NCBI GenBank assembly: GCA_029961055.1
Contig: JASBVM010000009.1
Span: 1-64,000, forward strand
Source: Bacillota bacterium
GTDB lineage: Bacteria > Bacillota > Sulfobacillia > JAIMAT01
DNA: 64,000 bases
Direction: 5' to 3'
The position numbers were made by a program, and so were the translations under genes. The notes under the pieces were generated by a model, which saw nothing but the letters and a program-made list of their open reading frames with translations, searched no databases and had not been told where the DNA came from. Below are positions 1,870-9,356 of this stretch, one piece after another; position 1 is the stretch's first letter; every line of letters begins with the position of its first letter.

Positions 1870-3837
1870 TCACCTGTTCGGCGGTCCCGTGCCCGGCGTG
1901 GCGGGGCGCCCCTTCCCGCCTGTCTCGAGCCGGGAGGCTGGCGCCGTGGAGCGATAGAGATAGACGCCGTCCCGGACGAAGAGCGGCTCGAACGCGTGCG
2001 AGGCCAGGATGGCGCGGAGGTCGGCCCACTGGGCGTCGAGCGGGACGATGGGCGCGTACGAGACGCCGGGAGCGAAGAGCACGTACACCGGGCTCTCCGT
2101 TCGCCTGGCCTGGTGGAGAAGCCCGGAGAAGGTGTCGTACGGTTCCGCCCCCACCCAGGGCCGGTCCCAGAGATGCCCGACCGTGCCGGTCTGGCCGTAG
2201 ACGACGGCGTCGGCGGGGATCCGCCGCACGGCCGCGTCCAGGGCGGCCACCACCCGGGGGGCGGGCGGTCGGAACCTCCAGAGCTCCATGGGCAGGCTCC
2301 AGTGCACGGTGACGACGGTGGCGGCGACGAGGAGCAGCGCCGCCGTCGCCTCGGGAGCCCACCGGAACCGGCGGGCGGTCCCGCTGGCGGCGTCGACCGT
2401 CGCCGCCGCCAGGAAGGGGAGGGCCCAGAGCGGGTACTGGCTGTAAGGCAGGTTGGGCAAAGGGAAGCGGCTGAGGCTGTCGACCAGGAGGACAGCGAGC
2501 GCCGGCAGGGCGCGCACCGGTGCCAGAAGCGGAAGCCAGGCGAGCGAGCCGAGCAGGAGCGCCCAGGTGTCCGCGTGCTTCGCGACCGCGTCGAGGAGGG
2601 AGCCCGGATGCAGGACGAGGTTGGCCAGGATGGCCGGGACGGACGCACCGAGGTGGCCGTAGTTCGCGAGAAGCGTCTTGTCCCCCGGCCCCAGCACCCG
2701 CAGGACCACTTCCTCGCTGAGCAGGAAGAAGCCGAGCGAGACGGCCAGCGTGACCAGCCCGCGCCGGAGCCCGAGGCCGTCCCTCCGGCGAAACGCAGCG
2801 ATCAGCTGCCAGAGCGCCATCCCCACCACCGGCACGACCGCCTGGTTCTTGCTGAGGAGCGCCAGCGCCACCAGCACGTAGTACAGGTGCGCCCGGTTGC
2901 GATCGTGCGCCCAGAGGGCCCACGTCAGGAAGGCGAAGGCCAGCGTGTCCGGGTGCCAGTCGATCGCGACGGTGGCCACCGTGCCCGGGAAGGCCCAGAT
3001 GGCCGGGAGCATGGCGAGCGCCCACCAGGATCGCCCCCAGGCGCGCCAGGCCATGAGGGCGAGGGGAACCGCACCGACACCCAAGGCGAATCCCTGCAGC
3101 GCGAACATCAGCCACGGCCCACCGACCGGTCCGCCGATCCGGAAGAGCGGGGCCAGCAGGTAGAGGATCCATTGCCCGGCGTCGGTGAGGACGGGCCCCC
3201 CGACGAGCGAGGTCCTCCCGAGCCAGTCGCCGCGCCCGATGGCGGCCATCGCCGTGAAGTAGATGCCCAGATCCCAGGCGCCCACCAGCCAGTGACGGTA
3301 CTGGTAGATCTTGACCGCCGTGAAGAGTGCGCCCGCCGAGAGCGCAAGTGCCCAGACAGTGCCTCGGAAGAGGCGCTCGATCTCGGCCGGGCGGCCCTGG
3401 CTCCGCGCCTGTGCCACCTGCGCCGCCAGGCCTCCGGCAAGCTGCACGACGACCAGCATGGGCACCGCCAGCAGCGCGGACCAGGCCAGGTGGTGCATGG
3501 GCACAGGCCCGTCCGGAGCCAGGGTGAGGGCGTACGTCAGCACGGCGCCACCGAGGAAGCCACCCAGGAGAAGGGTCGTCCACCCCGAGCGGCGCTCGCC
3601 GCCCCCGCGAGGGAGTGAGCGGAGACTCGCCCATCCGGCGACGGCCGAGGCCACGAGGAAGAAGAGCCCGGAGAGGAGCGGACGCAACCAGGCCGTGCGG
3701 ACCGCGTACGGCAACACCCGCACCAGGGCGTCTCCGGCCGCGGCGAGCAGGAGGGCGAGAGCCGCGCTCGCGGCGGCGCCCGCAGAGGCGTCGACGATCC
3801 ACGCCGAAAGCGGCGCGGACCGGGGCCGCCGGGTCAC
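1870..3837 (-). CDS. DUF2079 family polytopic membrane protein
   Basis: A 655-residue integral membrane protein with about a dozen hydrophobic helices between residues 10 and 510 and a soluble C-terminal stretch of about 130 residues. Landmarks typical of the DUF2079 group (related to GT39-like lipid-linked glycosyltransferases) are AWDLGIYFTAMAAI, DWHPDTLAFAFLTWALW and LLSKNQAVVPVVGMALW. The GTG start at 3837 overlaps the stop of the upstream glycosyltransferase (GTGA). The coupling suggests a joint role in transferring a sugar from a polyprenyl-phosphate carrier to an extracytoplasmic acceptor, but the substrate is unknown. An open frame continues upstream to 5646 only as a shadow of the neighbouring gene. 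Confidence 0.8.
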   Translation of the reverse strand: MTRRPRSAPLSAWIVDASAGAAASAALALLLAAAGDALVRVLPYAVRTAWLRPLLSGLFFLVASAVAGWASLRSLPRGGGERRSGWTTLLLGGFLGGAVLTYALTLAPDGPVPMHHLAWSALLAVPMLVVVQLAGGLAAQVAQARSQGRPAEIERLFRGTVWALALSAGALFTAVKIYQYRHWLVGAWDLGIYFTAMAAIGRGDWLGRTSLVGGPVLTDAGQWILYLLAPLFRIGGPVGGPWLMFALQGFALGVGAVPLALMAWRAWGRSWWALAMLPAIWAFPGTVATVAIDWHPDTLAFAFLTWALWAHDRNRAHLYYVLVALALLSKNQAVVPVVGMALWQLIAAFRRRDGLGLRRGLVTLAVSLGFFLLSEEVVLRVLGPGDKTLLANYGHLGASVPAILANLVLHPGSLLDAVAKHADTWALLLGSLAWLPLLAPVRALPALAVLLVDSLSRFPLPNLPYSQYPLWALPFLAAATVDAASGTARRFRWAPEATAALLLVAATVVTVHWSLPMELWRFRPPAPRVVAALDAAVRRIPADAVVYGQTGTVGHLWDRPWVGAEPYDTFSGLLHQARRTESPVYVLFAPGVSYAPIVPLDAQWADLRAILASHAFEPLFVRDGVYLYRSTAPASRLETGGKGRPATPGTGPPNR

Positions 3838-5156
3838 GCCCGGGTCGACTCCCTGCCGGCCCCCTCCGCGTTGTAAGCGTGGCCCCACTTGCCCCGTGCC
3901 CAGATGCCCATGGCGCTCAGGAGCATGCGCGCGGCATCCCGGCCGGGCCGGACCGTCGACGCCTCCACCTGACGCCATCGGAGCGGCACCTCGACGATGC
4001 GGAGGCCGTTCCGGCGGGCGACGAACAGGAGCTCGAGGTCGAAACTGAAGTTGTCCACGTGCAGATGCGCCAGCAGCCGGCGCACGCGCTGCATGCGGAA
4101 GCCTTTGAACCCGCACTGCGTGTCGGCCACCGTATCCAGTCCAAGCCGCCGGATGGCCCACTGGAAGAGCCGGTGGCCGACGGCCCGCAGGCCGCTGCCT
4201 TCGCCGAGGCGCCGTCCCGCGACCACGTCCGCCCCCTCGCGGAGCACCCCGAGCACCTGTCCCACCGGTTCCAGCCCGAAAGCCAGGTCGGCGTCCGACA
4301 TGACGGCATACCGGCCGCCGGCCGCCCCGAGCCCTGCCCGCACCGCGGCGCCCTTCCCGCCGTGCGGCTCGAGCCGATAGGCGCGCAGCCACGGGTGTCG
4401 CGCGGCGAACCGGGCCAGCAGCTCGGGCGTCGCATCGCTGCTGCCATCGTCCACCACGACCACTTCCGGCCGCCATCCGCGGTCTCGCTCCCAGGCTGCG
4501 ACCCAGTCCGCGATCCGGCCGAGCGTGGCGGGGAGACGCTGCGCCTCGTTGTAGGCGGGAATGACCAGGCTCAGCTCGGGGGCACACTCTCCCTCTCCCG
4601 CTCGGGCCGGGTCGCCGACGGGCACGGGGACGCCGACGCCCCCACCGAGGGGTTCGAGCCGGTAGACCCGCTGAAACGAGAAGAGGCTGTAGCCCACGTA
4701 GTTGGTGACCAGGCTTACAGCCCCACCCATCGCCTTCCCCGCGTTGATCCAGAGGACGCCCGAAATCGGGGGCGCGGCGCGGTGGAGCAGGAGCCACGTC
4801 AGCCAGCTCACATTCGGCGGCTTGGGCCAGAGGGCCATCCAAAGGGCGAGCACGAGCGTGCTCGCTCCCGCCGAGGCGAGGCTGACCAGGACGAAGCGCG
4901 GGAAACTGGCCCGGCTGCCGCGCCAGGTCCAACTCCGGTTCCACAGGTAGCTGTTCAGAAGGGCGACGCCGAAGGAGACGGCGTTGAGTCCTGCGGCGAG
5001 GGGCGCCGGCACGGACCCCGGGCGGGAGCCGCCCCACCCGAGGAGCATCGCGGTGTGGAGGAGCAGGTTGAAGAGCAGAAAGTCGACCAGGGTGTTCCCA
5101 ACACCGACGACGGTGAATCGCGCGAACCGGCGGAGCGGTGAAGACGGAGTCGCCAT
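3834..5156 (-). CDS. GtrA domain fused to GT2 dolichol-phosphate-type glycosyltransferase
   Basis: A 440-residue two-domain protein. Residues about 8-140 form a GtrA-like domain of four membrane helices, starting RRFARFTVVGVGNTLVDFLL. Residues about 195-425 form a family 2 glycosyltransferase resembling polyprenyl-phosphate mannosyl/glucosyl synthases, with LSLVIPAYNE, VVVVDDGSSD, the metal-binding SDADLAF and DTQCGFKGFR. It would make polyprenyl-phosphate-linked sugar at the inner face, and GtrA proteins are thought to help flip it. In most fusions I know of, GtrA lies C-terminal to the transferase; here it is N-terminal. It is coupled to the downstream DUF2079 gene by a GTGA overlap. The ATG at 5156 is well supported by the GtrA N-terminus. 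Confidence 0.88.
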   Translation of the reverse strand: MATPSSPLRRFARFTVVGVGNTLVDFLLFNLLLHTAMLLGWGGSRPGSVPAPLAAGLNAVSFGVALLNSYLWNRSWTWRGSRASFPRFVLVSLASAGASTLVLALWMALWPKPPNVSWLTWLLLHRAAPPISGVLWINAGKAMGGAVSLVTNYVGYSLFSFQRVYRLEPLGGGVGVPVPVGDPARAGEGECAPELSLVIPAYNEAQRLPATLGRIADWVAAWERDRGWRPEVVVVDDGSSDATPELLARFAARHPWLRAYRLEPHGGKGAAVRAGLGAAGGRYAVMSDADLAFGLEPVGQVLGVLREGADVVAGRRLGEGSGLRAVGHRLFQWAIRRLGLDTVADTQCGFKGFRMQRVRRLLAHLHVDNFSFDLELLFVARRNGLRIVEVPLRWRQVEASTVRPGRDAARMLLSAMGIWARGKWGHAYNAEGAGRESTRA

Positions 5157-5464
5157 GCAAGGACCTTCTTCCCAACCATTCTCGGGCCAGGCCGGCCTCT
5201 GCCCCGCGTCCGTGCGGAGCCCCTACGAGACCACCCGGAGCGTCAAGCCTTCGCCTGCCCCGCCACCGGGCCTGTACGGACGTCGTACCCCTGTACCTGC
5301 CCCGGGTGTCCATTCCACCGTCGGAGTCCCTCGTCCTGCCCGCCGGGCACCCCCGTCGCCACCGGCCCGGCCCGGCCCCGAACGGTCCGCGGGCCACGGC
5401 TCCCGCACTCCGTCGTCGGCCCGCCCAGACGCAGCTGGTGGAGCGCGGCCCCCGGCATGCCGGG
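5157..5464. other. Intergenic stretch, nothing recognised
   Basis: A gap of 308 bp between the HD-GYP gene stop and the GtrA-GT2 start, both genes on the minus strand. I see no RNA gene, no strong hairpin and no coding signal with a ribosome binding site. It presumably holds the promoter of the glycosyltransferase pair. Confidence 0.4.
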
Positions 5465-6571
5465 CTACCCCTGCACCTCGGTTCCAGCCAGCTCGGGGGG
5501 ATATTCGGGGAGCACCGCGGCGATTTCCAGGTGCCTGTTCTCGGCCAGAGAGAGCTCGAACGGTGCCAGCCTCTCGTTCCGCCCGTCTGCCAAGACACGC
5601 ACCCAGGGCCGCAGGGGGTCGCCGCGCACCGAGCGCGAGACGACACCCAGGAAGCCGTTGCTGAGCCGCACGATGGTACCCACCGGATAGAGAGCCAGCT
5701 GCTTCAAGAACATGCTGACGAGCCTCGGTTCGTAGGCACCTCCGGCCGCCTCGAGCAGCTTCGCGCCCGCCTTCACCTCCGGGAGGGGCTCCCATGGTCC
5801 GGGACGTCGGCTCGTCAGGTTGTCGAAGGCGTCGGCGATCGCCGCGATCCTCCCGTAGAGGTGGATGCCGTCGCCCCGCAGGCGGCGGGGGAATCCCTGG
5901 CCGTCCCATCGCTCGTGGTGCTGGTAGGCCACGTGGGCGGAGAGCAGGCTCAGCTCGGGGTCCGAACGGATCATGTTATAGCCGTCGGTGGTGTGCTGCT
6001 CGTACACGATCCGCTCGGCCTCGTCCATCTCGCTCGGCGATTTGTCGTTGAGCCCCGGGGGGAAGCGGATCTTGCCCAGGTCGTGCAAGAGGGCGCCGGT
6101 GCCGAGCTCGACCAACTTGACCTTGCTCAGGCCCAGGGTCGCCCCAAGCGCCACCGAGTAGACGCAGACGTTGACGCCATGGGCGTAGATGAATTCGTCG
6201 TAATCGCGCATGAGGTAGAGACCCATGACCGTGCTCTTGCCGGTGAACACCTCGTCCACGATCGCCTCGACGACGGGGACGACCTCCCGCATCGGCGTGC
6301 CATCGCCTTCCCCCGCCTTCTCGAAGACCTTGCGCACTGCCACGGTCGCATCCACCCGGGTGCGCTCCGACAGCGCGTCCTCCGCCGGATCGAGGTCGGG
6401 CGCCAGCGCGTCCTCGACGTACACGCCCTGCACGCCACGGGCGGCAAGTGCCTCGATATATCGCTCCGTCAGGGTGACCCCCGCTTCCAGGAGCGGCTTG
6501 CCTGTCTCGGCGTAGATGGGCCGAGCCAGGCGCTTGCCGACGGCGCGCACGGAGACCGGAACGAGACGCAT
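5465..6571 (-). CDS. HD-GYP domain cyclic di-GMP phosphodiesterase
   Basis: A 368-residue cytoplasmic protein. The N-terminal part (about 1-110) has no recognised sensor domain. Residues about 120-270 carry an HD-GYP domain with HDLGK, the second metal cluster HHERWDGQGFPRRLRG and IAAIADAFDNLTSRRP. The signature GYP reads GFP here, a conservative change, and the metal ligands look intact. Such enzymes hydrolyse cyclic di-GMP, often to GMP. The C-terminal part resembles the tail of many Bacillota HD-GYP proteins (PVGTIVRLSNGFLGVV). The gene starts 7 bp after the stop of an EAL gene, so two different phosphodiesterase folds share one operon. Confidence 0.9.
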   Translation of the reverse strand: MRLVPVSVRAVGKRLARPIYAETGKPLLEAGVTLTERYIEALAARGVQGVYVEDALAPDLDPAEDALSERTRVDATVAVRKVFEKAGEGDGTPMREVVPVVEAIVDEVFTGKSTVMGLYLMRDYDEFIYAHGVNVCVYSVALGATLGLSKVKLVELGTGALLHDLGKIRFPPGLNDKSPSEMDEAERIVYEQHTTDGYNMIRSDPELSLLSAHVAYQHHERWDGQGFPRRLRGDGIHLYGRIAAIADAFDNLTSRRPGPWEPLPEVKAGAKLLEAAGGAYEPRLVSMFLKQLALYPVGTIVRLSNGFLGVVSRSVRGDPLRPWVRVLADGRNERLAPFELSLAENRHLEIAAVLPEYPPELAGTEVQG

Positions 6572-6578
6572 CCGGCTG

Positions 6579-7820
6579 TCACCGCCAGAGAACCGGACGA
6601 CCGAACAGGTACCCCTGGCCGAGCTCCAGCCCCCGGTCGCGACAGAACGCGTACTGGTCGGCGGTCTCGATCCCCTCCGCGATCACCCTGGCTCCGACCT
6701 CGGCGGCGTAGCACTTCAAGGCGCTGCACAGAGCGGCGAAGCGTGGCTCGATCCGGGCGCGGCGCGTGACCGTGGCGTCGATCTTGATGTAGTCCCACTG
6801 GAAGAGCGCGAGGACCTGCAAACCCGTGTGACCCGTGCCCACGTCGTCCAGCGCGATCTCCACACCGAGCGCCCGCAGCATCCGCAGCTCCTCCCGGAGC
6901 TGGCTCGGATGATCGAAGACGCTCTTCTCGCTGATTTCGACCACCAGGTGACGCGGCTCATAGGTCCTCTGGTGCAATACGTCCACGAGTTCCCGGAGGG
7001 AGGCGATGGGGTTGACGTTCAGAAAGAGCCGCCGGCCGTCGGCCAGGTCCGCGGGCTGATAGCGAAGAATGGTGCGGCGGCAGACCGTCTCCAGCCGGCG
7101 CGCCGCGGCGTGCTCGCCGGCCAGTGCGAAGAGAGCGTCCGGTTGTTCCAGGGGGGAATCCTGCGGGCCGCGGATCAGCACCTCGTAGCCGTAGATCGAG
7201 CGGTCGTGCAGGTTGACGATGGGTTGTCGCGCGAGGCGCAAGCCCCGACCCTGCAGGGCTTCCTGGAGCGCCGCCAGTGCCGTTTCCGCTTCCGCCTCCG
7301 CACCGCCGGCGCGGGCGCCGTCCACGTCGCCGGCCAGGCGGTGAAGGACCGAGTCGAAGACCACCGCCGGGTCGGTCCCCGGCTGCCGGCGAACCTCGCT
7401 GCCGGTCACCCTCACGTCCCCCGGCCGGACCGCGTACGCGGCGAGGGCGGGTCCCCGGCAGAGACGGGCCACCGCCCCGGCGAGGCTGTCTCGCCACCCC
7501 GCCGTCTCCGTCGCCCCGGTCGTCGCCATGAGGACCAGTTCGCGGCTTCCGGGATAGAGGTGCGTCACCGAGGCGCGGCCCTTCAGCGCTCGCGCCAGGC
7601 GGGCCGCCAGCTCGGCGGTGAAGCCCCCGGCCACTTCCGGTCCCATCCGCTCGACGGCGTCGGGGGTCAGGCTGACCACGCCCACGAGGAGCGGACCACC
7701 GACTCCATCGCCGTGGCGGTAGAGGTCGGTGAACGTGTCAACGGCGTAGGGGGAAACCGTTTTGACTACTTCAGGAAGGTGCCCCCCCCCCCCCGTATCC
7801 ATATACTTCCAGTCGTTCAC
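6579..7820 (-). CDS. EAL domain cyclic di-GMP phosphodiesterase with poly-G tract
   Basis: A 413-residue protein. The N-terminal about 165 residues have no clear sensor and may be a decayed GGDEF-like region. Residues about 175-410 form an EAL domain with YEVLIRG (the EAL position), FLNVNP, VVEISE, DDVGTGHTG, YIKIDAT, VIAEGIET and LGQGYLFGRP. The residues that normally bind metal and substrate appear kept, so hydrolysis of cyclic di-GMP to pGpG is likely. The start is GTG at 7820 behind GGGAGGTG. Codons 9-13 lie in a run of 13 G (7782-7794) encoding Gly-Gly-Gly-Gly, so a one-base slip there would abolish translation from this start. It is followed at 7 bp by an HD-GYP gene. Confidence 0.9.
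   Translation of the reverse strand: MNDWKYMDTGGGGHLPEVVKTVSPYAVDTFTDLYRHGDGVGGPLLVGVVSLTPDAVERMGPEVAGGFTAELAARLARALKGRASVTHLYPGSRELVLMATTGATETAGWRDSLAGAVARLCRGPALAAYAVRPGDVRVTGSEVRRQPGTDPAVVFDSVLHRLAGDVDGARAGGAEAEAETALAALQEALQGRGLRLARQPIVNLHDRSIYGYEVLIRGPQDSPLEQPDALFALAGEHAAARRLETVCRRTILRYQPADLADGRRLFLNVNPIASLRELVDVLHQRTYEPRHLVVEISEKSVFDHPSQLREELRMLRALGVEIALDDVGTGHTGLQVLALFQWDYIKIDATVTRRARIEPRFAALCSALKCYAAEVGARVIAEGIETADQYAFCRDRGLELGQGYLFGRPVLWR
7782..7794 (-). repeat. 13-bp poly-G homopolymer in the EAL gene
   Basis: An uninterrupted run of 13 C on the plus strand (G in the mRNA) in codons 9-13 of the EAL phosphodiesterase. The next longest G or C runs I noticed in the window are about 7. 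It is in frame in this sequence. Such tracts are the classical substrate of slipped-strand phase variation. Confidence 0.95.
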
Positions 7821-7949
7821 CGGCGCACCTCCCGCTCGACGTCCTTCTCATCGCTTTGGTTCGGCCGGACTTCACCGGACTTGAGCGACTCGGCGCCTTG
7901 CAGCGGCCGCCGCGGAAGCTGCCAAGCCCACCCGGGCGGGCCTGGACGC

Positions 7950-7984
7950 ACCGGATCCCGTCGCAGCGCGACGGGATCCGGTGA
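7950..7984 (-). terminator. Perfect 15-bp hairpin downstream of clpX
   Basis: Arms 7950-7964 and 7970-7984 are perfectly complementary with a 5-nt loop. No T run follows on either strand. It lies about 90 bp after the clpX stop and 130 bp before the EAL start, so it probably ends the tig-clpP-clpX transcript. Confidence 0.6.
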
Positions 7985-8073: not shown

Positions 8074-9327
<1,254 letters not shown>

Positions 9328-9356
9328 GCGGCCCCCACTCCTTCCTGCCAAGCCCG

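Follow-up and report, generated by a model that had tools for sequence, protein, structure and literature searches.

The EAL gene and its surroundings

The window, i.e. the whole 64,000-nt stretch of DNA analysed, carries on its minus strand a gene coding for a predicted c-di-GMP phosphodiesterase with a degenerate GGDEF domain and an EAL domain, followed by a gene coding for an HD-GYP phosphodiesterase (Table 1). The first-pass annotation had described an EAL gene located directly upstream of an HD-GYP gene, with residues that otherwise look active, and both statements agree with the present analysis: the two genes lie on the same strand with a gap of 7 nt, and the translation contains the full catalytic set, namely E (of the EVL motif), N, E, DD, K, E and Q, which are the residues required by EAL phosphodiesterases. 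The Pfam match to the EAL domain is strong (9.2e-43, 146.7 bits with a cut-off of 31.3), and judging by its translation the protein looks active and is predicted to hydrolyze c-di-GMP.

No GGDEF match was returned by the Pfam search of this protein. In the AlphaFold model, residues 24–168 form a GGDEF-like α/β domain with the element order H-E-H-H-E-E-H-E-H, and Foldseek produced full-length alignments with the GGDEF-EAL proteins DosP, PA0575, MorA and LapD, with overall TM-scores of about 0.5, a value presumably due to a different placement of the two domains with respect to each other. Residues 1–21, which include the poly-G tract and precede the first fold, are predicted to be disordered (pLDDT below 30 in the AlphaFold model), so the gain or loss of glycine residues in frame should be harmless according to the model.

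Table 1 Features of the EAL locus in the window and tract loci of the PocR-GAF-HD-GYP family in other genomes
Feature	Position	Strand	Remarks
HD-GYP phosphodiesterase gene	5465..6571	-	Pfam HD_5 1.2e-22; starts 7 nt past the EAL stop
Degenerate-GGDEF–EAL c-di-GMP phosphodiesterase gene (predicted)	6579..7820	-	413 aa; GTG start at 7820
EAL domain	6594..7271	-	Residues 184–409; Pfam; PDB relatives 2r6o, BlrP1, DosP
Degenerate GGDEF domain (predicted)	7317..7751	-	Residues 24–168; signature YPGSRE in place of GGDEF
Off-frame stops just 3′ of the tract	7766..7773	-	TGA 7773–7771 in one frame, TAG 7768–7766 in the other
G13 tract (C13 on the plus strand)	7782..7794	-	EAL gene codons 9–13; putative slippage site
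Shine-Dalgarno sequence GGAGG	7828..7832	-	7 nt 5′ of the GTG start; read from the sequence
31-nt inverted repeat CCGGATCCCGTCGCAGCGCGACGGGATCCGG	7951..7981	.	Between clpX and the EAL gene
clpX	8074..9351	-	Upstream neighbour; Pfam zf-C4_ClpX and AAA_2
Tract loci L369, L370, L371, L372, L375, L376, L386, L387, L395			PocR-GAF-HD-GYP family
Twin HD-GYP copy L375	G068:C1, about 1827652		Single-contig genome
Twin HD-GYP copy L387	G068:C1:1056850-1058004		Single-contig genome

The only inverted repeat noticed upstream of the EAL gene is a tight, terminator-like hairpin which, as far as its function can be read from the sequence, is likely the terminator of clpX. No c-di-GMP riboswitch was found near the operon in the window. 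Downstream of the HD-GYP gene, the region 1870–5222 of the minus strand codes for a GtrA/family-2 glycosyltransferase and a DUF2079 membrane protein; these genes may be related to envelope polysaccharides.

The order of the EAL and HD-GYP genes is conserved in the congener G002 (contig C91), with 69% and 77% identity, respectively, although this contig begins inside the EAL gene, at residue 307. Within the genus no full-length ortholog of the EAL gene was found, the one in G002 being partial and G001 having no close ortholog, and the collections of genome contigs and viral contigs contained no close ortholog either. In G002 and G003 clpX is followed by lonB, with the EAL–HD-GYP pair taking this place in the genome studied here (G000), so either the pair or its neighbours have moved.

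The poly-G tract and its reading frames

The tract consists of the last base of codon 9 (ACG) and the whole of codons 10–13 (GGG). Its length, exact position and placement in codons 9–13, all reported in the first-pass annotation, were confirmed in the assembly on the minus strand and from the gene coordinates and translation, and so was the claim that it is by far the longest homopolymer, the second-longest run in the window being 7. Pattern searches of the genome (2.28 Mb in 54 contigs, 96% complete, 73% G+C) found 19 G/C runs of at least 8 bases, fifteen of which have 8 bases, two 9, one 10 and one 13, which makes the tract the sole G/C run above 10. With the observed run-length decay of 0.20–0.25 per added base, 0.006–0.02 runs of at least 13 bases are expected genome-wide.

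As in contingency loci, the repeat is far longer than the genome background (13 versus 10), it is located near the gene start (codons 9–13 of 413, downstream of GGAGG and GTG), and a change of one unit leads to a stop, with multiples of three restoring the frame. The frame is open at G10, G13 and G16, and G11, G12, G14 and G15 truncate it after 15–18 codons (16–17 codons for G12 or G14). Both wrong frames thus terminate at once, within four codons past the tract, which bears out the earlier claim that slippage by one base would turn the EAL gene off. A double off-frame stop within four codons occurs at 0.17% of codons in the 22 genes called in the window, or at 0.23% when their first 60 codons are considered. 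At 73% G+C such an immediate double stop is a marked feature, and an on/off device requires it. Start codons in frame with the gene occur next at codons 46–63, inside the GGDEF-like domain and with no recognizable ribosome site.

The main rival to a selected switch is a chance homopolymer which is tolerated in the disordered N-terminal tail of a protein from a high-GC genome. Under a simple composition model about 0.1 runs of this length are expected per genome, MutS is present, and many genomes of the class have long poly-G tracts away from signalling genes, all of which speaks for chance. Nevertheless, we consider this explanation unlikely, as the tract is the only run above 10 in the genome and has a double stop right after it, and as there is an excess of tracts at EAL genes of the class, a homolog from another family with a tract at the corresponding site and one conserved tract site in an HD-GYP family, all described below. 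In other bacteria MutS1 keeps the slippage of mononucleotide runs in check, and the intact mutS1 gene of this genome also counts against slippage as such; the loss of mismatch repair was rejected as a cause on the same ground.

It is considerably less probable that assembly or sequencing has exaggerated the length of the run, the true tract being shorter. The genome is in 54 contigs, poly-G junk is found at the contig ends of several relatives, and homopolymer length is a weak point of some sequencing methods, which weakens the comparison of G12 and G13 copies given below as well. The tract, however, is mid-contig, at position 7,782 of 194,473, its flanks are clean, its length of 13 keeps the gene in frame from a start with a good Shine-Dalgarno sequence, and comparable tracts occur in single-contig or near-complete genomes (G21 in G033, G13 in G043, G12 and G13 in G068).

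AT-rich flanks are marginal over all tracts of the class and strong at the G13 locus and at several tracts of signalling genes. The motif TAATATTTTCCA, considered as a shared flanking element 3′ of the tracts, was dropped as its frequency was about that of the background (7 versus about 5 of 147).

Poly-G tracts in related genomes

Of the 154 genomes of the class, 99 contain G tracts of at least 11 bases. From 96 genomes, about 280 distinct tracts were sampled in listing order and not by neighbouring gene, with the exception of a few loci noticed beforehand, and the 163 contig-internal tracts with clean flanks were retained as clean. Many of the long poly-G tracts of the class are intergenic or located at contig ends and look neutral or artefactual. 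Clusters at contig ends (G010, G013, G075, G101 and others) were set aside as likely assembly artefacts; G010, G013, G075, G101 and G144 have many poly-G/poly-C clusters no more than 100 bases away from a contig end, which probably arose in assembly or sequencing, and a G tract forms the very start or end of contigs in G011, G028 and G053.

EAL and HD-GYP genes near the tracts were recognized with home-made profiles. In total, 526 EAL matches in 103 genomes were counted for the class. Five of the 163 clean tracts are located within 170 bp of an EAL domain, with 0.25 expected from per-genome EAL counts (P about 6e-6). When 1 kb upstream is allowed, a limit picked after inspection of the data, the count rises to eight versus 0.44 expected, an approximately 18-fold excess, and it equals seven (P about 4.5e-7) without the G13 locus. 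Six taxonomic families are represented among the eight loci (f1, f8, f32 and f42 with one locus each, f7 and f38 with two each), so at least six of them are independent at the family level. EAL is also the commonest Pfam family among 134 tract-touching ORFs (six members, along with three to four containing HD/HD_5), and, in a separate comparison, neither EAL nor HD-GYP is among the top families listed for 134 control ORFs from the same loci, a list that may miss families with a single control member. A stop codon directly follows the tract in 15 of 42 clean tracts followed by T, compared to 11% of comparable sites (P about 3e-5), and of the 109 gene-associated tracts, 72 have their G residues on the coding strand (P about 0.001).

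The first-pass annotation had suggested comparing tract length and frame in related genomes, and this comparison revealed other c-di-GMP phosphodiesterases with tracts, in both ON and OFF frames. The homolog from G091, which belongs to another family, shares 36% identity with the EAL protein over residues 49–410, the GGDEF-like domain included, and possesses a G15 tract at the equivalent N-terminal place, with unrelated DNA on its flanks; read in frame with the start codon, the tract runs into TAA, so the gene is OFF as assembled. Likewise, a PAS-GGDEF-EAL gene in G038 contains G11 near its start, then TAA, and is OFF. In the congener G002, a methyl-accepting chemotaxis protein gene (L082, G002:C11, tract at 8598) has G12 past its start codon, then TAG, being OFF as assembled and ON at G13. 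Tracts just 3′ of the EAL domain were found in G033 (G21, a near-complete genome), G127, G093, G009 and G075.

Several tracts are located at regulatory genes of other types. G12 at L092 (G036:C119, tract at about 2896) joins a sigma-factor-like gene and the next, anti-sigma-factor-like gene, with TGATATG right after it, so slippage there could alter the end of the sigma factor and the coupling to the next gene. G13 at L365 (G043:C1, tract at 837372) precedes an anti-sigma-type HATPase domain, with TAA next in one frame, and G11 at L126 (G060:C29, tract at about 8387) is just upstream of a gene coding for an XRE-HTH and IrrE-like peptidase protein.

In a family of PocR-GAF-HD-GYP proteins, copies from six genomes share one C-terminal tract site, located at the same codon, where the run measures 6, 6, 8, 11, 12, 13, 15 and 20; one further copy is interrupted, and four more distant members have no tract. 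Read in one frame, the sequence 3′ of the tract gives a conserved alternative tail (LLGEILFS; TLIALLGEILFS or TIMDLLGEILFS), and most assemblies are in a frame other than that of this tail. The twin copies of G068 do not differ over 1,650 nt 5′ of the tract and 30 nt 3′ of it; the tract itself is G12 in one and G13 in the other, and the copies diverge starting shortly 3′ of it. A changed tract with no substitutions in 1.6 kb is what hypermutable slippage predicts on sequence grounds, although this difference could be mimicked by an error in sequencing the homopolymer or by a gene conversion event with its end near the tract.

A further possibility, about as improbable as an artefact or slightly more so, is that the run acts without any change in DNA, with transcriptional slippage, ribosomal frameshifting or a G-rich mRNA structure tuning the amount of phosphodiesterase per cell. 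Long G runs can favour each of these, and 13 G residues are enough in principle for a two-tetrad G-quadruplex. Against it are the relatives whose tracts, as assembled, put the gene out of frame and lead into a stop, and the twin copies differing in length, a pattern which, read from the sequences, fits heritable slippage. The two mechanisms are not mutually exclusive.

Proposed phase variation of c-di-GMP breakdown

We regard the G13 tract as a candidate contingency locus, and slipped-strand phase variation of the EAL phosphodiesterase as the best explanation and a fairly probable one. The proposal of a phase-variable switch made in the first-pass annotation gains support from the reading frames, the predicted activity, the relatives, the excess at EAL genes and the one-G difference in G068. 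According to it, replication slippage would add or remove single G residues at the tract. At G13, as well as at G10 and G16, the degenerate-GGDEF–EAL phosphodiesterase would be made because the glycine run falls in the disordered N-terminal tail; at other lengths translation would halt 2–4 codons past the tract and give no enzyme. In the OFF state the downstream HD-GYP gene would probably lose translational coupling, suffer from polarity, or both, so cells lacking the phosphodiesterase and possibly some of the HD-GYP activity would contain more c-di-GMP. Cells would thereby alternate, heritably and reversibly, between states with lower and higher c-di-GMP levels. We infer slippage at the G13 locus, its rate, its effect on c-di-GMP and the polarity on the HD-GYP gene.

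Phase-variable c-di-GMP phosphodiesterases are known in Bacillota from Clostridioides difficile, where pdcB and pdcC are controlled by promoter inversion (PMC9286219; reviewed in PMC11868660). That c-di-GMP and phase variation are connected is presented as a recent insight in a review from 2025, which gives recombination and epigenetic examples (PMC11868660). The novelty claimed in the first-pass annotation is corrected accordingly. No EAL, HD-GYP or diguanylate cyclase gene controlled by a homopolymer or by strand slippage, nor any such phase variation in Thermaerobacter or Symbiobacterium, was found in the open-access literature searched. The candidate resembles pdcB and pdcC in the stochastic on/off control of a phosphodiesterase in Bacillota, and PdcB, a PAS–degenerate GGDEF–EAL protein, is close to the GGDEF–EAL core of the 413-aa protein. 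In C. difficile, however, a promoter is inverted by site-specific recombination, whereas the candidate switch described here would be translational, acting by slippage of a coding poly-G tract.

Translational poly-G contingency loci are known from Campylobacter, Helicobacter and Neisseria (e.g. PMC6321876, PMC2823697, PMC5320596), and share with the present locus a long G tract near the 5′ end of the coding sequence, where a one-base change leads to an early stop. Those loci mostly concern surface structures in host-associated bacteria, and their length variation has been demonstrated; the G13 locus, known from one assembled length, concerns an enzyme acting on a second messenger, in another phylum and in a high-GC genome. 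In Helicobacter canadensis homopolymers switch C-terminal sequences (PMC2823697), and the tract near the 3′ end of the HD-GYP family would likewise swap C-terminal tails and not abolish the protein, but it occupies one site of one phosphodiesterase family in several genomes of the class and has a conserved alternative tail. Homopolymers at the 5′ end of coding sequences have also been described as a general means of inactivating genes (Orsi et al. 2010, PMC2831843), with early truncation as predicted for the present locus (an 8-aa product in the case of inlA), although that work stresses short poly-A/T runs and not a 13-base G run.

A point which goes beyond the first-pass annotation is that poly-G tracts occur repeatedly in c-di-GMP phosphodiesterase genes across the class. 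It is an evenly balanced question whether poly-G contingency loci target c-di-GMP breakdown class-wide, through EAL and HD-GYP tracts acting as N-terminal on/off switches or by C-terminal tail swaps, with free-living populations hedging between motile and sessile states through the second messenger. Repeat-driven phase variation mostly concerns surface antigens of host-associated bacteria. If the proposed switch is real, the random choice would be moved upstream, to the messenger which sets motility versus biofilm formation, in a poorly studied class. It would also be a second, mechanistically independent route to phase-variable phosphodiesterases beside that of C. difficile, suggesting convergent selection for switching c-di-GMP phosphodiesterases.
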